Source of the DNA: a virus
Virus record (IMG/VR): IMGVR_UViG_3300044629_000313
Coordinates: 1 to 41,159 of that record
Direction: 5' to 3' (one strand)
Length of the DNA stretch: 41,159 bases
A program made the translations under genes and the position numbers. The notes under the pieces are model-generated. The model had not been told where the DNA came from, made no database searches, and saw nothing but the letters and a program-made list of their open reading frames with translations. Positions 5,404-33,472 of the stretch are shown here, in pieces; position 1 is the first letter of the stretch; each line of letters opens with the position of its first letter.

Positions 5404-7176
5404 ATGCCCACCGTACCGACCACGTTCGTCCCGCAGGTCGCGCCGCAGGCGCCGGGCGACATCGGCCAGTTCCAGGCGCCTGGCGTGCAGGCCGCCGAGA
5501 ACCTTGCCGGGCCGCAGCTCGCCCGCTTCGGGCAGGCGATGACCGGGGCAGGCAACGCCGCCTTCCGGCTGGGCTCCGCGATCCAGGACGGGATCGACGA
5601 TGCCACGACCAAGCAGGCCGACGTGATGGGCACGACGGCCATGCAGCGCGTGGCCGACCGCTTCCTCGGCACGGTCGGGCAGCAGTCCGAGCGCGACTTT
5701 GAGGCGGCGATGGGCGAGCTGTCGCAGGCCGGGTCGGCGGCGATGGACACGCTGAAGAACGACACGCAGCGTGCGATGTACGCGCCCATCCTCGCCCGGA
5801 ACATGGGGATGTTCCAGAGCCGGATGCAGCAGCACCGCAACGGCCAGGTGCGCGTCTGGAACACGAACGAGGCCATCGCACGCAGCGAGGTGAACGCCGA
5901 CAACGCCATCTTCTCCTGGGCAAGCCGCAACGAGAAGGATGCCGCCGGGCGCCCGGTCGGGATGCTCCGGTATGCCGCCTACGCCGACACGGCCGTGGAC
6001 GAGGCCCGCAAGGCCGGCGAACTCATGGGCTACGCGCCCGACTCGGCGCAGATGAAGCAGCTCGAGCAGAAGGTCCACGACCGGATGGCGAAGGGCATCG
6101 TGGATTCCATGCTCGTCAACGGCGAGTATGCCGCCGCCGACGAGTTCTTGTCCGACCCGGACACGCAGGAAATGCTCGACGCCAGGGCGGCGCAGGCGCT
6201 GCGCGAGAGCGTGATGACCAACCAGCAGCGCGCCGTCATCGGCGAGCTCACGGCAAGCATCAAGGAAACGGGCACGCTTTACGCCAAGAGCGATCCGAAT
6301 ACCTACGGGCAGGAGGCGACCGAGGGCGCCGAGCCGCCGGCCACGCTGCGCGATGCGCTCGAGCGCGCCGAGTCGATCAAGGACGATGACGTCCGCAAGG
6401 CGGTGCAGGCGCAGCTCAGGACGCAGTACGCGCAGGACGAGGCGCTCAGGACGCAGGAATACCGCGCCCTGATCGACGCCTACGAGAACCACATGGCGGT
6501 GCCAGGCAACTCCATGTTCAACCTGCCGCCGGCGCTCGAAAGCCAGATGGCCGCACTGAGCCCGAAGGACCGACAGTCGTTCTACGCGCAGCAGCGCGAG
6601 TCTGACGAGATCGGCGTGCAGGAGGAGCTGGCGCGCAACCCGGCAATGCTTACCCGCGAGTGGCTCGAACGCAACCGCACGAAGATGACGCCAGGCACCT
6701 ACGTCAAGCTGCTCGGTGAACTCAACCAGCCCGAGAAGATCATTGAGGCGCAGGTCGACGCGGATGACATCAACCGCCAACTCACGGACATGGGCATGCC
6801 GCAGTACGTCAACGCACCTCGTGGATCGACCGACGCGCAGCGCCACCTGATCTTCCGAAACAACATCACGCAGATGATCGAGATTCGCCAGCGGGAGCGT
6901 GGCGGGAAGATCAGCCCAGACGAAAAGCGCGACATCATCCGCAAGGCCATCGTGGACGAGGCATACGTTTCCATCTCATGGGCGAGAGATCCAAGAATTC
7001 CAGTCGCCATGATGACGCAGGAGGAGCTCGGGAAGGCGTACTACGACATCGGTGACCAGGAAGTGCCATTCGCGCAGTACCGCATGGCCGAGCAGCAACT
7101 CATGCGCGCCGGCATCGCGTCCCCGACAGAGGCGCAGATCCTTGAATACTGGACCCGGAAGGGCAAGCCGAAGTGA
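5404..7176 (+). CDS. Internal virion (ejection) protein, T7 gp15-like
   Basis: This 590-aa, largely alpha-helical, charged protein sits between the gp14-like and gp16-like genes. An N-terminal Pro/Gln linker (residues 1-45) precedes helical repeats (about 60-480) rich in Gln, Asp and Arg with no membrane segment and no enzymatic motif. In T7-like phages the gp15 equivalent assembles a periplasmic tunnel with gp16. The start is 3 nt after the previous stop. The end overlaps the giant gene start by 4 nt (GTGA), so the two are translationally coupled. The role is inferred from position and composition. Confidence 0.75.
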   Translation: MPTVPTTFVPQVAPQAPGDIGQFQAPGVQAAENLAGPQLARFGQAMTGAGNAAFRLGSAIQDGIDDATTKQADVMGTTAMQRVADRFLGTVGQQSERDFEAAMGELSQAGSAAMDTLKNDTQRAMYAPILARNMGMFQSRMQQHRNGQVRVWNTNEAIARSEVNADNAIFSWASRNEKDAAGRPVGMLRYAAYADTAVDEARKAGELMGYAPDSAQMKQLEQKVHDRMAKGIVDSMLVNGEYAAADEFLSDPDTQEMLDARAAQALRESVMTNQQRAVIGELTASIKETGTLYAKSDPNTYGQEATEGAEPPATLRDALERAESIKDDDVRKAVQAQLRTQYAQDEALRTQEYRALIDAYENHMAVPGNSMFNLPPALESQMAALSPKDRQSFYAQQRESDEIGVQEELARNPAMLTREWLERNRTKMTPGTYVKLLGELNQPEKIIEAQVDADDINRQLTDMGMPQYVNAPRGSTDAQRHLIFRNNITQMIEIRQRERGGKISPDEKRDIIRKAIVDEAYVSISWARDPRIPVAMMTQEELGKAYYDIGDQEVPFAQYRMAEQQLMRAGIASPTEAQILEYWTRKGKPK

Positions 7177-10100
7177 TCGAGCCGGACATCAACGAGCGCA
7201 TGGCACGATTCTCGCCCTCGCAGGTCCAGGACGATGTCGACCCGATTGCGTCCGAGATCGCGTCACGTGCCGCCGTCCCGACGTCACAGCCGACGATGGC
7301 GATGCCAGACGTCGATCCCATCGCCCGCCAGATCGCGGAGAACGACCGCGAATCGCTCGACGCCGCCGTGCTCGGCGCCCGGGCCGTCAACCCGGACGAG
7401 GCCGCACGCGCCATTCAGGTGGGACGGAAGGTAGGCATCCCGGCCGAGGTGGCCCGTGCGGACATGCAGCGAGCCGAGCAGCAGGCGTACCTCACGGACC
7501 TGCGCTCAAAGGACTTCCTCCGCACCGACCCGGTCATGGCGAACTTCCTCGCCAACAAGGAGTTCGCGGAGGTCGCGCATGATGACGTCGGCGTGCTGGA
7601 TGCCATCCGGCCCATCATGCAGGACTGGGCGATGGTGTACTGGACGGGTGCCACGCCGGGCATGCGCCGGGGCTTTGAGCGCGGCCAGCTCGGCGCCGAG
7701 CGCGGAGAGATCGGCGGCATGGCGATGGCTGGCCTGGCGCAGCCCAAGGACTTCGAGCGTGCGTCCAAGATCCGCGACCGCATGCGCGAGCTGGTGGACG
7801 TCGGGTTCCTGGGCGCGACCACCGAGGTCATCGCACAGAACCTTGCACAGATCCGAGGGATTGGCACGTTCACGGTCGGCGGCGCGGCGCTCGGCAGCGT
7901 GGTGCCCGTGGTCGGCACGGTTGCCGGCGGAGCGCTCGGCGCGACCGCAGGCGTGGTCGCCACGACCGGGCAGATGGAGGCCGGGAACCTGTACCTCGAC
8001 CTGCGCGAGGAGGGCGTCGAGGATGACGTCGCCATCCCGGTGTCCGTGGCCGGCGGGTTCCTGAACGGCGTGATCGAGGTGGTCGGCATGAAGATCGCCG
8101 CCAAGCCGTTCCAGGCGCTTGCCAAGCGCTTCATGGCTGAGGCGGTCGCCAAGGCCGTCGCGCAGCCCACGACACGCGCCGCGCTCGCCGCGGCCGGGAA
8201 GGGATACATCCTTCAGGTCGGGACCGGGGCCAGCGAGGAGGCGCTCCAAGAGGTGGTCATCATCGCCGGCGAGGAGATCGCCAAGGCGGCGTCCGGGATC
8301 GACAGCGAGACGGGCCTGCGGCAGGCCACCGAGCGCGTGGTGGACGCCTTCGTGCAGGGCGCGATGGGGTCGGCCATCCTGGGCGGCATCGGCCCGGGCG
8401 CGAACCTGTACGTCGATTTGAGCCGTGCGGCCAACACCGAGCGGCAGCAGGTGTTCTTTGAGAAGCTCGCCACGGCCGGCAAGGACAGCAGGCTCGCCAA
8501 GCGCAGCCCGGAGGCATACGAGCGGTTCCTCGAGGCGCAGGCGAAGGACGGCCCCGCCGAGACGATCTACGTGGACGGGCGCACGGCACAGGAGCTGTTC
8601 GCGCAGAGCGGCCTGACGGCGGCGCAGCTCGAGGAGGTGCTGCCCGGAATCAAGGCGCAGGTGGACGAAGCGGTCGCCACGGGCGGGGACGTGACGATCC
8701 AGACGGCGCAGTTCGGCGCTCGGCTCGCCAACACGGAACTCGGGAACGCGCTGCTGCCGCACATGCGCTTGTCGCCGGACGCCATGAGCGCCACCGAGGC
8801 GCAGGCGTTCGAGGCTGAACGGCAGGCAGTTGTGGAGGAGGCACGCACGATCCTTGCAGCAAAGCAGGAAGCCGACGCTGCGTTCGTCGCCGAGGCGCAG
8901 CAGGTCGAGGACGAGGCGTTTGAGCAGGTCCGTGCGGTCGGCCAGTTCACCGACATCGAGGCGCGGACGATTGCCAAGCTGCGCCAGGCGATGGTGGTCG
9001 TGGATGCCGCCGAAGCCGGGATGACGCCGGCGCAGTATCAGCGCGAGCGCGGCGTGCCGTTGGTCGTCCAAGGTGAAAAAACAAACGTACAAGCAGCGCA
9101 ATCTGCTGTTAAAAATGCAGAACTACAGGCACGCAGCAAGTTGTTTGGATGGTACGCACAGCGCGAACTAGCGAAGATTGCAGAATCAGAAGGAGTTGAT
9201 CTATCAACTCTGACTCGAGATCAATACGCGCAGTACGCGATTGATAATGGGCTGGCTATTGATGACGATCACCTTCGCATGGCCGCTGTACTCCGCAACG
9301 CCAAGACGATTGAAGAATATGCGTCCATGCGAAAGTCAATGCGTGCCGCAGCGAATCCAATGCAACAGCAGGCAGATGCCGAGTTTGCTGCATTCGCACA
9401 GCGCATCAAGAGAGATGCAACCGCAAGTACGACGATTTCACCTGGGGTTCGTATTCGCAGCGGAACAGCAAATAGCGATACCTGGCTATATTTCAAGGTA
9501 AACTCTGGCGCAACTACGACAGGGGAAACGCACAAGGCATACGCTGGTTTTGCTGATCCGTACAAGTCGCTTACTCAAAATCGTGTTGAGCAGTTTCTGC
9601 AATTCTTGCAGAGTCGTGGATACAACGGAGACGTTAAGACTATTCAGGACATTGACCAAGGTAGCGCGATTTCAGATCAGATTGTGATGCACGGAGCTAC
9701 CAAAGCGGATGCAGATTTGGCATTGCAGTTGTCGCAGGAGTTCTTTGGAAACGAACTGAACTTCCTTGAAACCGGAATGGACACGGACAGCGGTTCTTAC
9801 AGCCAGAATCTTGCTGAAAAAATTAAATCCGATATTGCTGCTAGAAATCAATCACAGCAAGCGCAGCAGCCAACCACTGCATTTGATCAGGCGGCTATCT
9901 CCCGCATGGACGCCGACTACCTCGCGGCGGTCGAGCGCGGCGACATGGAAGCGGCGCAGCGCATGGTGGACGAGGCGGCGAGGGCTGCAAATCAACAGAG
10001 AGTTACAAGATTTACGGTTGGTAACCGTGGTTTGCTAAATAATCAAGTCCTCAATTACGACAAATTGTCAGATGACGAAATGGCTGAAGTTGAGGTTCTG

Positions 10101-13100
10101 CTTCCTCTTGGTTTGCAGCAACCACGGGACGTACCTGCCAATGCGACATTCTTCTTCACCGACGAAGGATTGATTCGGCAAAATCGATTGATTGAGTTGT
10201 TGAAGAAAGCGGCGAAAGGTCGTGTGATAGAAACGACTGCTTATGTTCCAAATGATCCTGTATGGACATCAAACGATGGACAAGTTGCTGTGGTTCCGGA
10301 GCAGATCAAGTCTGCCAACCCCGTCACCTACGACGAGCAGGGCAACATCGTCCCGCTGTCGCGCCGCTTTGACATCACTAGCCCGAAGCTGTTTGAGCAG
10401 GCCGCCACTCTCAACGCCGATTACTTTACAGCCATTGAGCGCGGAGATACGGAAACCGTTCAAAGCATGATTGACGAAGCGGCTGAAAGACAGATGCCGT
10501 CCAGTCAAGTGCGCGATGCGGCAGGAAAACTGCTTCGCATCTACCACGGATCACAGAGAATTGATCGAGTCGGAAACCGTCTGCTGAAGAAGCGGGCCAC
10601 ATCCGGGCCGATGCCGTTCTTTACCGACACTCGTGCGATTGCAGAGGGTTATGCCCAAGGCAAGGAAGACACGAGCATTGAGAACATCGGATACGAGCAA
10701 TGGTTCAAGTACAAGCCACGCGGACAGCGAGGCACTGTCACTCTTGACCAAGCGTGGTTCTATCTCACGCCAGAAGAACGCGCTACTGCCACCGAACGTT
10801 TGTATACGGTTGGATACGAAAATCCCGACGAAGGAACCGGGGAAATCGTTGGCAATACCAAAACCATTGCGTCACGCGACCATGTGCAATTCTTGATTCG
10901 TCAGGCCAAGGGAAACGCGCTGACTGCTGCAAAGGAACTCTGGCTCAACAGCGGAAGCCTGTTCAACGACGAACAGAAGTTCATGGATGTCCTGAAGGGC
11001 ATGGGACTAGGAGAACGATTCGTTTACGACTCTCCTCATGCGGTCAATTCCGGAATCATTGAGGCATACGCCAACATCACGAATCCGCTCGATACATCTG
11101 CAATTCCGACATCAGTAGTTGATGCGCTTCAGAAGCGCGCAAATCGCGTGCGAAAGCCAGCAGATGAATACGGGCAAGATGCGTGGGACAAGCGGACTCG
11201 TGATCCGCAATCTTGGATGGAAACGCTCCGCTCCGACATCGCTGAAGGCCGGACGCAGGCATGGACTTCAATCCCGGATTGGGCGACCGATGTTCTGACA
11301 AAGCTTGGATATGACGGCATCAAGGACAGTGGTGGCAAGTATGGCGGCGATCCGCATGTCGTATGGATTCCATTCAATCCGCAGCAGATCAAGTTTGCCA
11401 ATCCAATCACAAAGGATGGTTCCGGGAAGATCATCCCGCTGTCAGAACGATTTGACCTGACATCTCCGATGATGTTCCGTCAGGCGGCACCCGGCCCAGC
11501 CCGCGGCGGATTCGACCCGCGCACTCTGAACGTCCTTGTCGGCAAGGGTGGCGATGTATCGACGCTCGCGCACGAACTGATCCACCTCCGTGTCGCCGAG
11601 TACCTACGCATGGCGCGTGGCACCACGCCGCCAGCGCGTGTGAACGCCGACCTCGAGACGCTGTTCGACTTCATGGGCGTGGAGGGCGCGACGTTCCAGG
11701 AGCGTCTCGACAACTACGAGACGATGACCATCGACCAGCGCAGGCCGCTGGAGGAGAAGGTCACCTACAACTTCGAGGTGTATCTGTACGAGGGCAAAGC
11801 ACCGAGCGTTGAGCTGCGCGGTGTGTTCGACCGCCTCGCCGCGTGGATGCGCCGCGTGTACAAGTCGATCCGCGATGACCTGAACGCGATCTACCGCCGC
11901 GAGTTCGGCACCGACCTGCCGATCCTCACGCCCGAAGTGCGCTCCGTGTTCGACCGCATGCTCGCATCCGAAGAGCAGATCAAGCGGCAGGAGGCCATCA
12001 GTGGAATGAAGGGTCTGTTCCAGACCCAGGCCGAGAGCGGCATGGGAGACGCTGAGTGGGCCGCGTACCAGGCCATGCAGCAGGAGGCTACGGATGCTGC
12101 CGTCACCGACCTGAACACCGCCAGCATGCGGCAACTCCAGTGGCTTGGGAACGCACGCGCTCGTATCCTGCGCGACCTTCAGAAGAAGCACGAAGCCAAG
12201 CGTAAGGAAGTCACTGCCGAGGTGGCCGCTACCGTCAGGCTCGAGCCCGTCTACCGTGCGATGACCTACCTACGCACCGGAAAGTTCGTGGACGCGGACG
12301 GGGCCGAGGTCGCCGTCGAAGGGCCGCATCGCCTTGACACCAAGCGCGTCAAGAAGCTCTACGAGACGGTCCCGACCGCCGCCTCGCTCGAGGCCGTGCG
12401 TGCGACCGGGATGCCGATGCCGGCGGTGATCGCCCCGGACATCGCCAAGCTCGGGACGGGCAAGGGCGGCATGATGGGCGTGGATGGACTCGACCCGGAC
12501 CTGGTGGCCGAGACGTTCGGCTACTCGAGCGGCGACGAGATGATCCGCGCCCTGATCGCGGCCCGCCCCATGAAGGAGATCGTGGCCGAGCGGACGGACG
12601 CCGAGATGCTGCGCCGCTTCGGAGACATGACGAGCCCGGAGGCCATCGAGGCCGAGGTGCAGGCGGCGCTCCACAACGAGGCCAGGGCGCGGTTCGTGGC
12701 CGTCGAGCTGCGCTACCTGTCCAAGGCGACCGAGCCGGCCCGGGTGATGGTCGACGCGGCCAAGCAGGTCGCCCGCGACCTGATCGCCGCCAAGCGGGTC
12801 CGAGACGTGCGCCCGAGCGACTTCGTGGCCGCCGAGGCCCGTGCCGCCCGTGACGCATCCCGCATCGGGTCGCCCGTGGACGCCGTGGCCGTTGGCCGTG
12901 CCGCCTATACCCGGACCTACAACGAGCGGATCGCGGCGGGGGCCGACGAGCTGACCGCCGTGGCCGAGGCCACCACGGCCAGCGTGGAGGCCGCCAGGAT
13001 GGCTCAGGAGCGCACGGAAGAGATCAAGGCGCGCTACGGGGCCGACCCGGAGCAGGCCCGCATACGGGCAAAGCGCGCCCAGCTCTACCAGAACCAGCTC

Positions 13101-15524
13101 GCCGCCGAGGCGCTCCGGGTCAAGGCCGAGGTGGACAAGCAGGTCAAGTACCTGCGGCGGGTGCTCAGAGACGAGAACGTCAAGCGCATGGGGGCGCAGG
13201 CGGCTGACCAGGTCGCCGGGCTCCTCGACCGCTTCGAGGTGGCCGCCGTCAGCCTGAAGCGCCTGGACGAGCGCAAGGCGCTGACCGACTGGCTCGCCGA
13301 GCAGGAGGCCGCAGGGCTGGTGCCGGACATCGCCCCGGAGATCGCCAACGAAGCCCGCCGCGTCAACTACCGCGAGATGAAGGTCAGTGAGTTCCGCGAC
13401 CTGGTGGACGCGGTGAAGCAGATTGAGTTCATCGGCAAGAACGAGCAGAAGCTGCGCCTGGCCGAGGAGCGCGCCGCGTTCGAGGAGAAGCGGGACGAGA
13501 TCGTCACGCGCATCCGCGCCGCCGGCAAGGTCCGCGGCCTGAGCCTCGACCCGCGCACGCCCCTGACCGGGATCGGCCGCGCCGCCGCGTTCCTGCGCGG
13601 GTTCGCCGCCCAGCACCTGAAGGCCGCGTCCATCGCCCGCGTCCTTGACGGCGGCAAGGAAGACGGCCCGCTCTGGAACGCCATCATCCGCACGGCCAAC
13701 GACGCCTCCGACATGGAAACCACCATGCGGGCCAAGGCGTCGCTCAGGCTGGGGGAGATCCTGAAGCCCGTGTTCGCCCTCGGTGGCATGGGTGGCAAGG
13801 GGATGCACTTCCCGTCCATCGGGCGCAGCCTGAACCGGGAGGCGCGGCTCGCCATCGCCCTGAACATGGGCAACGACGGCAACCGCCAGCGCCTGCTTGA
13901 CGGCGAGGGCTGGACGCTCGAGCAGATCCAGCCCGTGCTCGAGAGCCTGACCGAGGCCGAATGGCAGGCCGTGCAGCAGGTGTGGGACTTCATCGACGGC
14001 TACCGCCCGGAGATCGCCGCCAAGGAGCGCAGGCTCTACGGCAAGGAGCCGACCTGGGTGACGCCCGTCCCGTTCACCGTCCGCACGGTCGACGGCAAGG
14101 ATGTCAGCCTCCAGGGCGGCTACTACCCGATCAAGTACGACCCGGTGGCTTCCGACCGGGTGGCGACCGTGGACGCCGCCGAGGAGGCCAAGCGCGACCT
14201 GCAAGGCGCGTATACGGCGGCCACCACGCGTCGGTCGTTCGTCAAGGCACGCGCCAAGGAGGTCGTGGACAGGCCGATCCTGTACACGCTCGACGCCGCC
14301 TTCAGCGGGGTGAACGACGTGATCCACGACCTGTCGTGGCATGAGTGGCTCATCTCGACGAACCGCCTGCTGCGCGACGTCAAGTTCGCCAATGCCGTGC
14401 GCGAGACTCGCGGTCCTGAGTTCCTGAAGCAGCTGCGCGACTGGACGAAGGACAATGCGACCGGGGCACGCGGTCAGCAGGTCGCCGGCGAGTCGGTCCT
14501 GTCCTGGCTCAGGCAGGGCATCAGCGCGTCAGGCCTCGGCTTCAACATCAACAGCGCGGCGCTTCAGATCACGGGTTTCAACCAGAGCATCGTGCGGGTG
14601 GGCGCGAAGTACATCGGGCAGGGCATCACGCAGTTCGCGACCAGCCCGTTCGACTCGGCGAAGATGGTGGCCGACAAGAGCCAGTTCATGGCCGAGCGCG
14701 GCCGCACGCAGTTCCGCGAGATCAACGAGATCAAGAACCGTGTACGCGGACAGACAGAGATTTCGCGGCGGGTGTTCGCCGGCACCTACTTCCTGATGAT
14801 GAACATGCAGCGGTCAGTGGACATCCCGACCTGGCTCGGCGCGTACCAGAAGGCGCTCGACGCCGGGAAGAACGATGCCACGGCCGTGGCGCTCGCGGAC
14901 CAGGCGGTGCGCGACTCGCAGGGCAGCGGTCTCGTCTCTGACCTCGCGGCGGTCGAGCGCGGCGGGCCTGCCATGAAGCTGTTCACGGTGTTCTATTCGT
15001 ACATGAACACGGTCTACAACATGGCCGCCGTGCAGACGATGACGGCACGCGGCAGGGGGAAGCTGGCCGCCGACTACGCGATGCTGTTCGTGGTCCCGGT
15101 CGTGCTCGGTTACGCGATCAAGAGCCTGCTCCAGCCGAACACGGATGACGAGGAGTTCGATCCCGAGGCACTGGCACGCAAGCTCGCCGCCGAGGAGCTG
15201 TCGTACATGATGGGCACCATGATCATCGCACGCGAGTTTGGAGGCGCCGCGCAGCTCCTGACGGGCGCGGAAGGCGTCCGCATGGGCTACGGCGGCCCTG
15301 CCGGCCTGCGCGCCATCGGAGAGGTGTATGGCCTTGCCACGCAGGCTGGACAACTTGAGTTCGACCGCGCCTTCCGCCGCTCTGCGGTCAACACGCTCGG
15401 TGCGTTTACCGGGCTGCCGGCGGCGCAGATCAACCGCACCATCGACGGCATCGAGGCGGTGGTCGAGGGCGAGGTCGAGGGCGTCGGCGCGGTGGTCGCG
15501 CCGCTCACCGGAGTGCAGCGTTAG
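7173..15524 (+). CDS. Giant 2783-aa ejection/polyvalent protein with ART-like and HExxH domains
   Basis: This gene occupies the T7 gp16 position and is about twice the length of T7 gp16. Start is GTG at 7173 (GGAAGGG site upstream, GTGA overlap); an in-frame ATG at 7200 is the alternative. Order: helical N-terminus; hydrophobic Gly/Ala/Val segment at about 231-275; helical region to about 630; A/T-rich insert at about 634-1438; zinc-peptidase-like HELIH at 1467-1471 with a possible third ligand Glu near 1535; long helical/coiled region to about 2150; conserved C-terminal region with a membrane-type segment at about 2636-2655. The insert carries two cassettes, each opening with a DADYLAAVERGD-type linker and closing with an IKSANP...PLSRRFD block. 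The second has an ADP-ribosyltransferase-like core (IYHGS near 1123, FFTD near 1148, YDGI near 1379), as in PolyVal proteins. Enzyme activity is inferred. Confidence 0.82.
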   Translation: MIEPDINERMARFSPSQVQDDVDPIASEIASRAAVPTSQPTMAMPDVDPIARQIAENDRESLDAAVLGARAVNPDEAARAIQVGRKVGIPAEVARADMQRAEQQAYLTDLRSKDFLRTDPVMANFLANKEFAEVAHDDVGVLDAIRPIMQDWAMVYWTGATPGMRRGFERGQLGAERGEIGGMAMAGLAQPKDFERASKIRDRMRELVDVGFLGATTEVIAQNLAQIRGIGTFTVGGAALGSVVPVVGTVAGGALGATAGVVATTGQMEAGNLYLDLREEGVEDDVAIPVSVAGGFLNGVIEVVGMKIAAKPFQALAKRFMAEAVAKAVAQPTTRAALAAAGKGYILQVGTGASEEALQEVVIIAGEEIAKAASGIDSETGLRQATERVVDAFVQGAMGSAILGGIGPGANLYVDLSRAANTERQQVFFEKLATAGKDSRLAKRSPEAYERFLEAQAKDGPAETIYVDGRTAQELFAQSGLTAAQLEEVLPGIKAQVDEAVATGGDVTIQTAQFGARLANTELGNALLPHMRLSPDAMSATEAQAFEAERQAVVEEARTILAAKQEADAAFVAEAQQVEDEAFEQVRAVGQFTDIEARTIAKLRQAMVVVDAAEAGMTPAQYQRERGVPLVVQGEKTNVQAAQSAVKNAELQARSKLFGWYAQRELAKIAESEGVDLSTLTRDQYAQYAIDNGLAIDDDHLRMAAVLRNAKTIEEYASMRKSMRAAANPMQQQADAEFAAFAQRIKRDATASTTISPGVRIRSGTANSDTWLYFKVNSGATTTGETHKAYAGFADPYKSLTQNRVEQFLQFLQSRGYNGDVKTIQDIDQGSAISDQIVMHGATKADADLALQLSQEFFGNELNFLETGMDTDSGSYSQNLAEKIKSDIAARNQSQQAQQPTTAFDQAAISRMDADYLAAVERGDMEAAQRMVDEAARAANQQRVTRFTVGNRGLLNNQVLNYDKLSDDEMAEVEVLLPLGLQQPRDVPANATFFFTDEGLIRQNRLIELLKKAAKGRVIETTAYVPNDPVWTSNDGQVAVVPEQIKSANPVTYDEQGNIVPLSRRFDITSPKLFEQAATLNADYFTAIERGDTETVQSMIDEAAERQMPSSQVRDAAGKLLRIYHGSQRIDRVGNRLLKKRATSGPMPFFTDTRAIAEGYAQGKEDTSIENIGYEQWFKYKPRGQRGTVTLDQAWFYLTPEERATATERLYTVGYENPDEGTGEIVGNTKTIASRDHVQFLIRQAKGNALTAAKELWLNSGSLFNDEQKFMDVLKGMGLGERFVYDSPHAVNSGIIEAYANITNPLDTSAIPTSVVDALQKRANRVRKPADEYGQDAWDKRTRDPQSWMETLRSDIAEGRTQAWTSIPDWATDVLTKLGYDGIKDSGGKYGGDPHVVWIPFNPQQIKFANPITKDGSGKIIPLSERFDLTSPMMFRQAAPGPARGGFDPRTLNVLVGKGGDVSTLAHELIHLRVAEYLRMARGTTPPARVNADLETLFDFMGVEGATFQERLDNYETMTIDQRRPLEEKVTYNFEVYLYEGKAPSVELRGVFDRLAAWMRRVYKSIRDDLNAIYRREFGTDLPILTPEVRSVFDRMLASEEQIKRQEAISGMKGLFQTQAESGMGDAEWAAYQAMQQEATDAAVTDLNTASMRQLQWLGNARARILRDLQKKHEAKRKEVTAEVAATVRLEPVYRAMTYLRTGKFVDADGAEVAVEGPHRLDTKRVKKLYETVPTAASLEAVRATGMPMPAVIAPDIAKLGTGKGGMMGVDGLDPDLVAETFGYSSGDEMIRALIAARPMKEIVAERTDAEMLRRFGDMTSPEAIEAEVQAALHNEARARFVAVELRYLSKATEPARVMVDAAKQVARDLIAAKRVRDVRPSDFVAAEARAARDASRIGSPVDAVAVGRAAYTRTYNERIAAGADELTAVAEATTASVEAARMAQERTEEIKARYGADPEQARIRAKRAQLYQNQLAAEALRVKAEVDKQVKYLRRVLRDENVKRMGAQAADQVAGLLDRFEVAAVSLKRLDERKALTDWLAEQEAAGLVPDIAPEIANEARRVNYREMKVSEFRDLVDAVKQIEFIGKNEQKLRLAEERAAFEEKRDEIVTRIRAAGKVRGLSLDPRTPLTGIGRAAAFLRGFAAQHLKAASIARVLDGGKEDGPLWNAIIRTANDASDMETTMRAKASLRLGEILKPVFALGGMGGKGMHFPSIGRSLNREARLAIALNMGNDGNRQRLLDGEGWTLEQIQPVLESLTEAEWQAVQQVWDFIDGYRPEIAAKERRLYGKEPTWVTPVPFTVRTVDGKDVSLQGGYYPIKYDPVASDRVATVDAAEEAKRDLQGAYTAATTRRSFVKARAKEVVDRPILYTLDAAFSGVNDVIHDLSWHEWLISTNRLLRDVKFANAVRETRGPEFLKQLRDWTKDNATGARGQQVAGESVLSWLRQGISASGLGFNINSAALQITGFNQSIVRVGAKYIGQGITQFATSPFDSAKMVADKSQFMAERGRTQFREINEIKNRVRGQTEISRRVFAGTYFLMMNMQRSVDIPTWLGAYQKALDAGKNDATAVALADQAVRDSQGSGLVSDLAAVERGGPAMKLFTVFYSYMNTVYNMAAVQTMTARGRGKLAADYAMLFVVPVVLGYAIKSLLQPNTDDEEFDPEALARKLAAEELSYMMGTMIIAREFGGAAQLLTGAEGVRMGYGGPAGLRAIGEVYGLATQAGQLEFDRAFRRSAVNTLGAFTGLPAAQINRTIDGIEAVVEGEVEGVGAVVAPLTGVQR
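9072..11485 (+). other. A/T-rich cassette insert within the giant ejection-protein gene
   Basis: Base and codon use change abruptly at about 9072 (runs of AAA, TTG, GAT, ATT) and return to GC-rich codons at about 11485, without breaking the frame. Two GC-rich islands inside (about 9895-9990 and 10300-10410) coincide with shared cassette borders. The first segment (about residues 634-908) is unrecognised; its WLYFKVN and SDQIVMHG strands loosely recall HopA1-type effector folds, a weak suggestion. Cassette 1 spans about 9898-10405 and cassette 2 about 10408-11490. Confidence 0.75.
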
Positions 15525-25017: not shown

Positions 25018-25045
25018 AGTATACGCCCCACTACATCGGCGTCAA
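25018..25045 (-). promoter_or_regulatory. Sigma70 promoter for recT and gp157
   Basis: On the minus strand TTGACG (25045-25040), a 16-nt spacer and TATACT (25023-25018) form a near-consensus promoter. The -35 box overlaps the TGA stop of rusA, so recT and gp157 can be expressed separately from the upstream early genes. The start of transcription should lie near 25011, giving a leader of about 60 nt. Confidence 0.75.
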
Positions 25046-27981: not shown

Positions 27982-28283
27982 GCGAGCCTCCATACCCGAA
28001 TCAGGCGACCATGCGTGGACGGCCGGCGGCTTGCGACCACCTCGCCAGTCCATGCGAACTTGCCGTCGAACACGCTGCCAGCGGCGTTTCCGAGTTCCGC
28101 ATAGTCAAGGCCGTTCTCGGCCATGAGCGCGGCGACCTCGTCGGCGGTGACCGTCTGGCCATGACTGGCGATGAACGCCGCGAAGCCGCGTGCGGCGGCG
28201 AGGAGTTCGTGGCGGCGGTCGGCGGCGAGCGCCTTGCCGACGATCTTGCGCCGCTCAGCCTCGGCGGTGTCAAAGAGGTTCAT
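27978..28283 (-). CDS. Conserved phage protein with GNAAGSVF motif
   Basis: This 101-aa protein has a helical N-terminal half (RRKIVGKALAADRRHELLAA) and a compact C-terminal domain: TVTADEVAALMAENGLDYAE, then LGNAAGSVFDGKFAWTGEVV, ending GRLIRVWRLA. The same pattern (HTH-like helix pair, GNAAGS-F, WTG, final VWRL) recurs in early regions of many phages infecting proteobacteria. The arrangement looks like a small winged domain, possibly DNA-binding. No function is established. It is coupled by ATGA to its neighbours on both sides. Confidence 0.7.
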   Translation of the reverse strand: MNLFDTAEAERRKIVGKALAADRRHELLAAARGFAAFIASHGQTVTADEVAALMAENGLDYAELGNAAGSVFDGKFAWTGEVVASRRPSTHGRLIRVWRLA

Positions 28284-28528
28284 CGGAACCTCCGAGTCCT
28301 GAGCTTGCGCGGGTCGATGATTCCCATGTCGAGGACGGTGTAGCCGACCCCGTCCTTGTGGGCGATCATCACCCCGAACAGGTCATGCGCCCGGTAGATG
28401 ATGTTGTTCACCGTGCGGGGCGTCACGTCCCAGCGGTGCGCCAATTGCTGCCTGGTCATCGGTTCGGTGCGGCAGATTTCGACCATGTCAAGGATGCGGT
28501 CGACGAGGGTTTCGGTGTCCTGCCTCAC
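28280..28528 (-). CDS. Winged-helix HTH protein of the early operon
   Basis: This 82-aa protein starts at GTG 28528 (GGAGG 7 nt upstream, GTGA overlap with the gene before); a longer reading from 28588 would run into the preceding gene. Residues 20-45 form a recognisable helix-turn-helix (EPMTRQQLAHRWDVTPRTVN, then NIIYRAHDLF) followed by a beta wing (GVGYTVLDMGIIDP). It may be an early transcription regulator. The nearest candidate operator is the dyad at 28863-28890 ahead of the operon. Confidence 0.72.
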   Translation of the reverse strand: MRQDTETLVDRILDMVEICRTEPMTRQQLAHRWDVTPRTVNNIIYRAHDLFGVMIAHKDGVGYTVLDMGIIDPRKLRTRRFR

Positions 28529-28776
28529 AGTTCGACCTCCGTCTTGGCGTGGACGGCGAGGAAGTCCTTCTCGGCCTGCTGGAGCCACAGGATGGAGGCG
28601 TCGAACTCATGCTCGGCGTCGAGGTTGCTCTGTGCGACGGCGCGGCTGGCGGCGATGACCTCGGCGCTGACCGAGTCCCCCAATTCCATCGCGGCGGCCA
28701 GGAGCACGTTGTCGTACTTCTTGCGGGTTTCGTGGCGAAGCGTGATGTGGTTGGTGACCGTATCTCTGACCTTCAT
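28525..28776 (-). CDS. First gene of the early operon, small helical protein
   Basis: This 83-aa protein starts at ATG 28776, with GGAGAA upstream. It has a short basic beginning (MKVRDTVTNHITLRHETRKK) and then long helices (NVLLAAAMELGDSVSAEVIA; DAEHEFDASILWLQQAEKDF). No cysteines and no TM. It is not recognised. As the first early gene it could be a host-takeover protein, but nothing in the sequence shows this. Confidence 0.65.
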   Translation of the reverse strand: MKVRDTVTNHITLRHETRKKYDNVLLAAAMELGDSVSAEVIAASRAVAQSNLDAEHEFDASILWLQQAEKDFLAVHAKTEVEL

Positions 28777-28862: not shown

Positions 28863-28890
28863 GTTAGAAATTCCGGCAAGAATTTCTTAC
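28863..28890. promoter_or_regulatory. Operator-like dyad in the divergent early region
   Basis: AGAAATT (28866-28872) and AATTTCT (28881-28887) form a perfect inverted repeat with an 8-nt spacer; GT and AC at 28863-28864 and 28889-28890 extend it. It is an A/T-rich island in the 153-nt gap between the early minus operon and the plus-strand phosphoesterase gene, so a repressor here could control both directions. No convincing sigma70 boxes were found for the minus operon. Confidence 0.55.
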
Positions 28891-30671: not shown

Positions 30672-31256
30672 TCAGTCGCGCCAGTAGACCTCGTCGCCCC
30701 GGCGGTAGTTCCTGAAGTCGCGCTCGCCCTTGACGTACGAGGTGAAGTGCGAGTCGATGTACTGCGCATAGTTGTTCGGCAGCAGCATGAACCAGCCCGA
30801 ACTCGTCTCGATGAGGTTCAGGGGCTTGTGCTCCTGCGGGTAGCGGCTGAAGCCGTCCGCCCAGTCGAAGACGATCCCCGTGTGCCGGCCCGTGAACCCG
30901 GGCCTGTCGCCTAGTGCCGTCTTCTGCGCGACGCCCATGCAAGGCAAGCCCTCGAGGTAGTGGAGGTGCATGATCTCGAGGTGCTCGCCCATGCCGCCCC
31001 AGGGCGTGAGTTCACGCGACCCGCCGCTGGCGACTGCCTGTGGGTGGAACGCGGTGGTCATCGACATCATGTGCAGCGGGATGCCGCACCAGTGCGCGCC
31101 CGTCTCGAGCAGCACGTGCGCGAGGAGTTCCTGCCCGGGCCGGCAGTACGCCGCGTGCCAGATGCCGCGAGTCGTGCCCTCTGGCATGTTCGGCCCGAGC
31201 GCCGAGTTGTGTACTTGCACGTAGAGGTGAAACGGAAGATTTGCGTGGCGCGGCAT
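30672..31256 (-). CDS. Unrecognised 194-aa protein, His/aromatic-rich
   Basis: Start ATG 31256 gives MPRHANLPFHLYVQVHNSAL; a longer frame to 31316 would run through the candidate RNA/promoter zone, so I prefer this start although no ribosome site is visible. The protein is rich in His, Trp and Tyr (TRGIWHAAYCRPGQELLAHV; GAHWCGIPLHMM; MHLHYLEGLPCMGV; GIVFDWADGFSRY) and has no TM segment or signal. The mixture of conserved-looking His and Cys suggests metal binding. It stands alone between two unusual non-coding stretches on the strand opposite to the late genes. Function unknown. Confidence 0.68.
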   Translation of the reverse strand: MPRHANLPFHLYVQVHNSALGPNMPEGTTRGIWHAAYCRPGQELLAHVLLETGAHWCGIPLHMMSMTTAFHPQAVASGGSRELTPWGGMGEHLEIMHLHYLEGLPCMGVAQKTALGDRPGFTGRHTGIVFDWADGFSRYPQEHKPLNLIETSSGWFMLLPNNYAQYIDSHFTSYVKGERDFRNYRRGDEVYWRD

Positions 31257-31271
31257 TTGCGTAGGTATACT

Positions 31272-31432
31272 GCCAATGCGGAGGGGTGAGTCTGAGGTGG
31301 CTTCGGCCCCAAACACTCACAGGGGCATCGGCAGAAAGGCCGCGAGGCACGGCCCGGTGCAGCGCACCCTTGGTGTAGCAAACGCATTCCGCCGTAGGGC
31401 AGGCCAGGCTAAGACCTGGCGCTGCCCACCTG
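31272..31432 (+). ncRNA. Candidate structured RNA
   Basis: Successive plus-strand hairpins: GTGAGT/ACTCAC (31286-31291, 31315-31320) enclosing GGC-UUCG-GCC; GGCCG/CGGCC (31338-31342, 31350-31354); GGTGC-AGC-GCACC (31356-31368); and a two-part stem GGGCAG/CTGCCC with inner CCAGG/CCTGG (31397-31427). GCGGA (31278-31282) can pair with TCCGC further down to close the domain. A TATACT box stands just before. It matches no RNA family I recognise. Confidence 0.35.
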
Positions 31433-31448
31433 ACCAGCAAACTAGTCA

Positions 31449-31496
31449 TGTGACAAAGTCACCACACTTGTTGACAAGTGTCATCAGTTTGTCACA
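31449..31496. promoter_or_regulatory. Nested symmetric dyad
   Basis: TGTGACAAA (31449-31457), six bases, ACACTTGT (31464-31471), TG, ACAAGTGT (31474-31481), six bases, TTTGTCACA (31488-31496): inner and outer arms share one centre. Such a site suits a dimer-of-dimers regulator or an initiator protein. A consensus -35 TTGACA sits at its centre (31471-31476), but no matching -10 was found. Confidence 0.65.
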
Positions 31497-31510
31497 CGCC
31501 CGAAACGAAA

Positions 31511-31542
31511 CGCGGCCCGGGACTTGCGTCGACCAGGCCGCG
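31511..31542 (-). terminator. Intrinsic terminator of the 50-aa minus gene
   Basis: On the minus strand CGCGGCC pairs with GGCCGCG around an 18-nt loop and is followed by TTTCGTTTCG. It starts 16 nt after the stop of the 50-aa gene at 31558. The reverse of the U-rich tail (CGAAACGAAACG, 31501-31512) is repeated at 32892-32903. Confidence 0.7.
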
Positions 31543-31557
31543 CTTCCGGGGGTTCAG

Positions 31558-31710
31558 TCAGGTCGCGACGCGCTCGGCGGCGACTTGCCGCTCTGCCTCG
31601 TCAGAGAGCCGCGCCTGACGCGGGAACCATACCCCGGAAACAGAACGACCGCAAGCGTGCTTGCGGCCGTCTGCGAATTTCGCTTGCATGCCCCGAGGGA
31701 TCGGTATCAT
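31558..31710 (-). CDS. 50-aa basic protein with own promoter and terminator
   Basis: This small gene encodes MIPIPRGMQAKFADGRKHAC and so on to QVAAERVAT. It is basic and contains GVWFPRQARLSDEAERQVAA, a short aromatic strand followed by a helix. An internal ATG (31689) could be the start. It is flanked by a promoter (31737-31764) and an intrinsic terminator (31511-31542) on the same strand, a layout that supports it being real. No ribosome site is evident. Function unknown; a small regulator or an anti-host peptide is possible. Confidence 0.5.
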   Translation of the reverse strand: MIPIPRGMQAKFADGRKHACGRSVSGVWFPRQARLSDEAERQVAAERVAT

Positions 31711-31736
31711 GCAGCCAGCTAATCCAATCCGGTCGC

Positions 31737-31764
31737 ATTGTACCGCAGGTGCCTTCAGGGGCAA
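31737..31764 (-). promoter_or_regulatory. Promoter of the 50-aa minus gene
   Basis: Minus strand TTGCCC (31764-31759), 16-nt spacer, TACAAT (31742-31737). The -10 is near consensus and the -35 moderate. It would start transcription about 20 nt before the ATG at 31710. Confidence 0.55.
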
Positions 31765-32007
31765 CAATGCCGCACGCAGCTCTCGGCGCGGTAGGGGAGC
31801 ATGGATGTAGACGCAGGGCATGACCCTATCCTGCGCCGCCCGAAAGGGTGCGCTCCCCGACGATGGCAGCGGCTGGCAGTCCTCCAGCGAAATGGTGAAA
31901 ATCGTCGCTACGACTGACAGCGCGGCTCCGTGTGGGCTGATCGTGGTGGCCCCCTTGCGGGGTCACGCCCTCTGCGCTCACCATGTGAACTGAAATCCGT
32001 GGTTCGG

Positions 32008-32151
32008 GGGGCGCGAAGCGCCCCGCAGAGTCCTGAGCGAAGCGAAGGACGGATCGGAATAATCCCTCCCCTGTCGCCGGCTCACCCCAGGCGCCGCGAG
32101 TGGAGCGAAGCGGAGCCGCAGGCGAAGCGCAGCGGAGCGCAGCGAGCGGCG
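32008..32151. repeat. GCGAAGC mini-hairpin cluster
   Basis: GCGAAGC occurs at 32013-32019, 32037-32043, 32105-32111 and 32122-32128. The first is the tip of a 7-bp stem with a GAA loop (32008-32024). The second is nested in GTCCT/AGGAC (32030-32034, 32046-32050). The last two lie inside a longer dyad CGCCGC/GCGGCG (32092-32097, 32146-32151). d(GCGAAGC) is known to fold into an unusually stable mini-hairpin, described in the phiX174/G4 origin region. Confidence 0.7.
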
Positions 32152-32175
32152 TCCTGACTGAATTCGTTCGCAGAC

Positions 32176-32204
32176 TTGCAGATTTCAATACGTGCGCGTA
32201 TAGT
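32176..32204 (+). promoter_or_regulatory. Sigma70 promoter of the 209-aa accessory gene
   Basis: TTGCAG (32176-32181), a 17-nt spacer and TATAGT (32199-32204) on the plus strand. Spacing is ideal. Transcription would start near 32211, 25 nt before the ATG, with an AAGGA ribosome site between. Confidence 0.8.
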
Positions 32205-32235
32205 GCCCGTGAACCCTCCACACGAAAGGACCCAC

Positions 32236-32865
32236 ATGAAGTGGTATCTGATGGCGTTCACGCGAGAAGTGCCTGAATACCTGCACGTTCACGTTCCAGG
32301 CATCCACGAATGGCTGCTTTCACAGTACGACCATTCGCTCCATGGGCACAAGATGGGCATCGACACGGCCGTGTTTGAAACGCTTGCCGAGCAGTGGTGG
32401 GCGCAGGAGTACGGCAAGTTCGGCAGCAGACAGCCTTTGCGACTCGAAGGCGGTTCATCATCCAGGATTCACGCCGGCTTCGTCAACATGCTGGAAATGG
32501 ACATGTCGATCATTCCCGAGCACAGGATGACCGAGATCAGCGCATCGCCTGGCAACAACGTGCTTGTGTGCAAGATGTGGCAACCACCGGAAGGCGCAAG
32601 CGAAGAAGGGCGCTGGCGAACGATCCACGCGATGTTGCAGTGCAACAATTTCAGCGAAGTCGATGGCAAATACATTGATTTCTACGCTGATTCCCGCGAA
32701 AAAATGCAAACACAGAATGAGATTCGCGCCAAGATGGATATTGACCAGACCCACCGCTTTTACGACGAGCTGAGAACCTACGTCCGGCGCGAGCACGGAC
32801 AGAAGATGCCGCCAGCGCATCGCGATGGATTTGAAGCCCCAACAGGCAAGAAGAAGAAGGCCTGA
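32236..32865 (+). CDS. Accessory protein with its own promoter (moron-like)
   Basis: This 209-aa protein begins MKWYLMAFTREVPEYLHVHV. Codon use is visibly less GC-rich than in the flanking genes, and a clear promoter and ribosome site precede it, the pattern of a recently gained, independently expressed gene. Segments: His-rich N-terminus (VPGIHEWLLSQYDHSLHGHK), WWAQEYGKFGSRQPL, EMDMSIIPEHRMTEI, a helical C-terminal third (REKMQTQNEIRAKMDIDQTH) and a Lys-rich tail (GKKKKA). No known domain; no TM or signal peptide. Confidence 0.72.
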   Translation: MKWYLMAFTREVPEYLHVHVPGIHEWLLSQYDHSLHGHKMGIDTAVFETLAEQWWAQEYGKFGSRQPLRLEGGSSSRIHAGFVNMLEMDMSIIPEHRMTEISASPGNNVLVCKMWQPPEGASEEGRWRTIHAMLQCNNFSEVDGKYIDFYADSREKMQTQNEIRAKMDIDQTHRFYDELRTYVRREHGQKMPPAHRDGFEAPTGKKKKA

Positions 32866-32925: not shown

Positions 32926-33216
32926 ATGGCGGGAAAGCGAAAGCCACGGCACAACCCCGTACTCTTGGCCCAGTTCGGGGACTGCTTGCTGGGCATCATG
33001 TACCCCCGCCCCGACGAGGAGAACTGCATACCCGTCGCCGTATACAGCGCCGAGATGATCGCAGCCCGCCTGCGCGACAACGAGAACATGACGATGGCCG
33101 AGGCGCGCTGCTTCGTCACCGACCGCATCGAGCAGAACTACCTCGGGCCCGGCACCCCCAGGATCATCTGGCCGGCGACCGAGGAGGATTTCGGTGAAGT
33201 CATCACCTCGCAGTGA
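32926..33216 (+). CDS. Small protein of unknown function
   Basis: This 96-aa protein has a basic start (MAGKRKPRHNPVLLAQFGDC), a beta segment (CLLGIMYPRPDEENCIPVAV), a helix (SAEMIAARLRDNENMTMAEA) and an acidic end (ATEEDFGEVITSQ). No good ribosome site is seen; a TAGCAT box lies 10 nt upstream, so it may start near the 5' end of an mRNA. It is separated from the preceding gene by 60 nt containing the repeat CGAAACGAAACG (32892-32903). Not recognised. Confidence 0.6.
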   Translation: MAGKRKPRHNPVLLAQFGDCLLGIMYPRPDEENCIPVAVYSAEMIAARLRDNENMTMAEARCFVTDRIEQNYLGPGTPRIIWPATEEDFGEVITSQ

Positions 33217-33229: not shown

Positions 33230-33472
33230 ATGAATATCGGCTCGTATGAGGACGTGAAGGCCGCGATCACGCATGGCCTCACCTCCGCAGGAACCACGCG
33301 AAGCGCACTCGCACGCCGACTCGAGGCCCAGGGCGCCCTACGAGCGCACACCGTGCAGTGCCTCCTGTCCACGGCCCCCGTAATCGGCCGTAGACGCCCC
33401 ACGTTCGATTCCGTACTCAAGATCGCCCACGCAGCCGGGTTTGAGCTCCGGCTCGTCCTGAAGGATTCCTGA
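33230..33472 (+). CDS. XRE-like HTH regulator candidate
   Basis: This 80-aa protein resembles short Cro/XRE-type proteins: SALARRLEAQGALRAHTVQC (helix-turn-helix region, about 24-43) and the C-terminal PTFDSVLKIAHAAGFELRLV helix-strand, a pattern common to HigA/XRE-like proteins. The spacing between helices is longer than usual. It has no clear ribosome site but an extended -10 immediately upstream. It may regulate the phage switch between early and late expression; target sites are not known. Confidence 0.6.
   Translation: MNIGSYEDVKAAITHGLTSAGTTRSALARRLEAQGALRAHTVQCLLSTAPVIGRRRPTFDSVLKIAHAAGFELRLVLKDS

Follow-up and report, generated by a model that had tools for sequence, protein, structure and literature searches.

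A 48-bp nested dyad (31449-31496, no strand assigned) in the viral DNA analysed here, a stretch of 41,159 nt that we call the window, is a real and conserved element, since conservation settles what sequence shuffling left moderate. With doubt and confidence about balanced, we read it as an operator-type DNA site for a putative symmetric protein that would regulate read-through from a structured RNA, RNA1, immediately to its left. The dyad itself fits a known class of site; RNA1 and a mutual exclusion between a second structured element, block R, and replication-initiator genes are the more surprising results.

Geometry and conservation of the dyad

Each half-site of the dyad has the form TGTGACAAA-N6-ACACTTG, with a variable centre of 2-4 nt between the halves. 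In the window, the 9-nt outer arms TGTGACAAA (31449-31457) and TTTGTCACA (31488-31496) flank the 8-nt inner arms ACACTTGT (31464-31471) and ACAAGTGT (31474-31481), with 6-nt gaps on both sides (GTCACC and CATCAG) and the centre TG at 31472-31473, so that the coordinates and symmetry in an earlier note on this DNA proved exact. Scoring 14 (matches minus mismatches), the dyad is the top palindrome in the window and the only one to reach 13, and both occurrences of TGTGACAAA in the window lie inside it. Scores of at least 14 arose in 3 of 200 dinucleotide shuffles of the whole window and in 2 of 2000 shuffles of the local intergenic sequence; judged from one sequence, a chance origin is unlikely to a moderate degree only. 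The earlier remark that such geometry is rarely accidental was therefore fair, but for a single sequence these frequencies are not overwhelming, and it is conservation that decides.

The dyad is present in at least 19 other viral contigs. Scanning IMG/VR with the outer arm returned 35 stretches, among them 13 other viral contigs with like flanks and outer arms spanning exactly 48 bp overall. Searching with the left flank only recovered 12 contigs and with the right flank only 13, all belonging to this 13-contig set, and both arms were present in every one (12/12 and 13/13). The diverged haplotypes C to F were recovered through relatives of the neighbouring gene X, and the seven dyad haplotypes differ mainly in the gaps and centre. 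Every full genome of the dyad clade carries a single copy. The inner core ACACTTGT-NN-ACAAGTGT is also retained by L101 and L127, in other contexts. Other contigs with the TGTGACAAA arm (L004, L005 and others) or with the inner arms (L123-L126, L128-L136) were set aside as chance pattern matches, lacking RNA1 and lying in unrelated contexts.

We compared 14 half-sites and found the ACACTTG and TGTGAC parts nearly invariant, whereas variation falls in the centre and in the 6-nt gaps. Half-site positions 8, 16, 18 and 20-22 are invariant, positions 1-6 are altered in one half-site only, which bears an indel, and positions 10, 12-15 and 23 vary freely. On these alignments, the variation is the pattern of putative base contacts plus a spacer. 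The earlier note had asked whether relatives might keep the region and lose the symmetry: within the dyad's own clade the symmetry is kept, whereas two sister clades keep the place with other palindromes or none. The palindromes at the equivalent place are GTTGCAT-N5-ATGCAAC and TTTCCGG-NN-CCGGAAA, and the sister-clade phages L094, L099, L050 and L054 have no palindrome there, so the wider group can do without the dyad.

RNA1 and block R in the hub around the dyad

The gene order around the dyad runs metallophosphoesterase, the 30282 gene, gene X on the minus strand, RNA1 on the plus strand, a variable hub, the 32926 and 33230 genes, terS and terL. Gene X (30672..31258, minus strand; 194 aa, weak PHROG 3704 match) is the near-constant left neighbour of RNA1, and a conserved 96-aa protein (32926..33216, plus strand) forms the right border of the hub. 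The description of this region as a gene-free hub holds for proteins but not otherwise, since two structured elements, RNA1 and the non-coding block R, lie in the 31260-32235 gap. Five −10-like sites were found in the 41-kb window, four of them in the hub (31266, 31705, 32199 and 33217) and the fifth at 25023 on the minus strand. The hub also holds a putative cargo gene (32236..32865, plus strand; 209 aa), preceded by a promoter-like TTGCAG-N17-TATAGT (32176..32204, plus strand); comparison with the remaining hub loci and with full genomes gave no match to this gene. Searches of hub DNA against known phages and plasmids found no relatives, and a literature search found no description of the hub. 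A search of genome contigs for a host matched just one contig, of 3.4 kb, which had been binned with Nocardiaceae but is probably of phage origin and misplaced there.

RNA1 (31272..31427, plus strand) is a 156-nt structured RNA with a closing stem, a GNRA-capped arm and a 3' hairpin with a conserved bulged G, and it is present in more than 50 viral contigs. Twelve of its 30 pairs covary, with both sides changed, and 420 of 420 cells are paired, against 34-48% in a control with partners slid; its G-U pairs are consistent with the plus strand. A covariance model of RNA1 gave one match in each relative and none in L138 and L139, more distant podovirus stretches from Manatee Spring. A −10-like TATACT (31266..31271, plus strand) precedes it, reading TATAGT in L068 and TATGAT in L101, and no conserved −35 was found upstream of this site. 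RNA1 and the dyad are 21 nt apart, and abutting the dyad is a short inverted repeat, TGACCA-N6-TAGTCA (31431..31448, no strand assigned), which is perfect (TGACTA/TAGTCA) in haplotypes L080 and L137. Downstream of the dyad lies a leftward terminator-like hairpin (31507..31546, minus strand) followed by GTTTCGTTTC, whose whole stem is swapped for another paired stem among relatives. In L001, RNA1 and the dyad are separated by a PAPS-reductase-like gene, inserted exactly between the two and bordered by ACC at each end; such a gene also abuts RNA1 in L050, L054 and L073.

Farther right lies block R (31711..31993, plus strand), a 283-nt conserved structured element. It is non-coding: copies are 79-100% identical in DNA to that of the window, yet their frames are displaced and interrupted by indels. 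Seven pairs in its covarying helices show double changes (33 cells, versus 11.4 in shuffles); its folding energy by itself is unremarkable. A promoter-like TTGCAT-N15-TATCAT precedes R (31684..31710, plus strand) and is kept in other clades, the spacing being N15 or N16. We doubt that an 87-aa ORF at 31558-31821 (minus strand) is a gene, because several frames of its DNA are conserved and it overlaps R. An Rfam search matched neither RNA1 nor R to any family, its only return being SNORD23, a chance match that scored far under the threshold, and no known RNA or tRNA could be assigned in the hub.

Across 39 hub loci, R is present in 25 and a replication initiator in 14, with no locus carrying both and none carrying neither; in the window, R occupies the initiator's place. 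The initiators to the right of the dyad are of the HTH_36 type, akin to O-like initiator PHROGs, or of the DUF1376 type, akin to primosomal-protein PHROGs, with a 156-aa partner. R and the initiator are swapped within both the window's own clade and the L049-type clade, and an initiator is also present in L101; the exclusion thus does not stem from one ancestry. Tentatively, and with more doubt than confidence, we suggest that the dyad and RNA1 may form the fixed left part of a hub in which R stands in for O-like or primosomal protein initiators. If so, R-type phages would initiate from an RNA primer or a structured origin, in principle as in ColE1, and the dyad would be a common regulatory site. 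The hub offers a testable case of a structured non-coding element replacing phage replication-initiator genes, with a second covarying RNA, absent from Rfam, as that element's neighbour. As a separate observation, an AAGCAYGGC-like unit of about 11 nt is repeated in tandem inside the DUF1376 gene of L030; such repeats may be iterons like those in lambda O.

Regulatory and alternative readings of the dyad

Among the roles proposed earlier, an operator with stacked sites is the best supported, because the symmetric half-sites are kept, the gaps vary and the dyad is single-copy; the initiator site, in its simple form, did not hold up. An operator is expected to have conserved symmetric half-sites with a tolerant spacer, and this is what we find. 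We propose that a symmetric protein would bind the dyad, which separates the 3' end of RNA1 from the replication-initiation module; it would do so either as one dimer contacting the inner as well as the outer arms or as a stack of two dimers. The bound dyad would most likely be a roadblock to transcripts reading through from RNA1's promoter into that module, or would regulate them, a role suggested by its position about 175 bp downstream of this promoter, with the next promoter in the rightward direction more than 200 bp further on. The closest promoter-like sites, at 31266 and 31705, do not overlap the dyad, and no sigma-70 promoter was found within it. Several points weigh against an operator: the dyad has no overlapping promoter, unlike a classical operator, regulons are often multi-copy whereas the dyad is single-copy, and some sister-clade phages have no palindrome at this place. 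Operators of dimeric helix-turn-helix (HTH) proteins in phages and plasmids (lambda Cro/CI, plasmid Rep) likewise have short symmetric half-sites with variable spacer and centre, and are likewise intergenic, beside a replication or regulation region. The dyad differs from them in being 48 bp long, having a pair of nested arms in each half-site, occurring once and overlapping no promoter, and its binder is putative.

The first candidate binder is an 80-aa HTH-like protein (33230..33472, plus strand) with a weak PHROG 4268 repressor match and sub-threshold HTH support. Its putative recognition helix does not vary within the dyad clade; between clades with differing palindromes it reads AHTVQCLL, AHTVRCLL or AHTVMCLL. 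This protein is a lead, not proof, and three clades are too few to establish that the helix co-varies with the palindrome. The leftward operon encodes the second candidate, a small HTH protein (28280..28588, minus strand). The dyad provides a well-defined handle for tracing a regulator across a large, uncultured podovirus group.

The hub is a replication-initiation locus, as its HTH_36 and DUF1376 genes indicate, and the dyad might instead be part of a replication origin bound by an initiator or a host protein beside the replication module. Its outer arm resembles TGTGACAA, a motif that we take to belong to the RepE sites of the F plasmid. Inverted repeats are a further likeness to the RepE operator and iterons, RepE binding such repeats as dimers (PMC13028717). 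The dyad differs in that it is not a tandem iteron array, no such array being present there, and in that no Rep_3 protein was found in the window or its relatives, which led us to reject a Rep_3/RepE-type origin or operator. An initiator-bound origin should change with, or depend on, its cognate initiator, yet the dyad is unchanged when the initiator family switches or is absent. Although the dyad adjoins the replication module, as the earlier note's initiator site would, it accompanies HTH_36, DUF1376 or neither; its retention beside each of the three module types shows that it is not the site of one particular initiator. We regard an origin as fairly unlikely.

Alternatively, in RNA1 transcripts that read through, the dyad could fold into a hairpin serving in processing, protection or attenuation. 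The folded haplotypes are stable (−12.9 to −24.9 kcal/mol), and read-through is plausible because RNA1 has no classical U-tract terminator. However, the more stable hairpin forms on the minus strand in haplotype A but on the plus strand in B, and in D neither strand has the advantage; this inconsistent strand preference suggests that the symmetry is kept at the DNA level. The half-site changes are moreover one-sided rather than compensatory, and a U tract is absent on both sides of the dyad, which also removes an intrinsic terminator from consideration. A hairpin role seems decidedly improbable.

We also weighed an attP-type recombination site for a large serine integrase, or a mobile-element target. 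The A118 attP totals 50 bp, with its ZD motif at positions 16-24 (PMC3783163), and the dyad resembles it in a 2-bp centre, half-sites of about 24 bp and a 9-bp outer motif (PMC3783163). The attP sites of large serine integrases such as those of A118 and phiC31 and the dyad are both about 50 bp long, with a central dinucleotide and a distal 9-bp motif, and cassettes have been inserted beside the dyad, as with the PAPS-reductase gene of L001. Despite this striking geometry, an integrase attP is unlikely: the dyad phages differ from A118 and phiC31 in that no serine recombinase was found and in their palindromic (CG in haplotype B) or altered (ACGG in D, E and F) centres. The PF00239 resolvase domain was not found in the window or eight relatives, nor PF00589 in twelve records, and none of the genome contigs searched, covering about 85,000 species, matched a degenerate dyad. 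With neither a serine nor a tyrosine recombinase found, the integrase was dropped, and we give recombination or mobile-element targeting as a whole very little weight.

It is likewise very improbable that the dyad is a passive joint, a functionless conserved patch for recombinational module swaps: flanks are swapped on both sides (in L001 on the left, and in several differing right sides) and the phage encodes RecT and RusA, yet the symmetry is retained though the sequence between the arms has diverged, and such swaps require homology, not dyad symmetry.

Elsewhere in the window, a second dyad, AGAAATTC-N6-GAATTTCT (28866-28887), lies between divergent leftward and rightward operons and is kept in G002 and G003. 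Farther left, a 2783-aa polyvalent protein (7173-15524) carries LPD22 and ART-PolyVal domains and includes a low-GC stretch at 9-11 kb.
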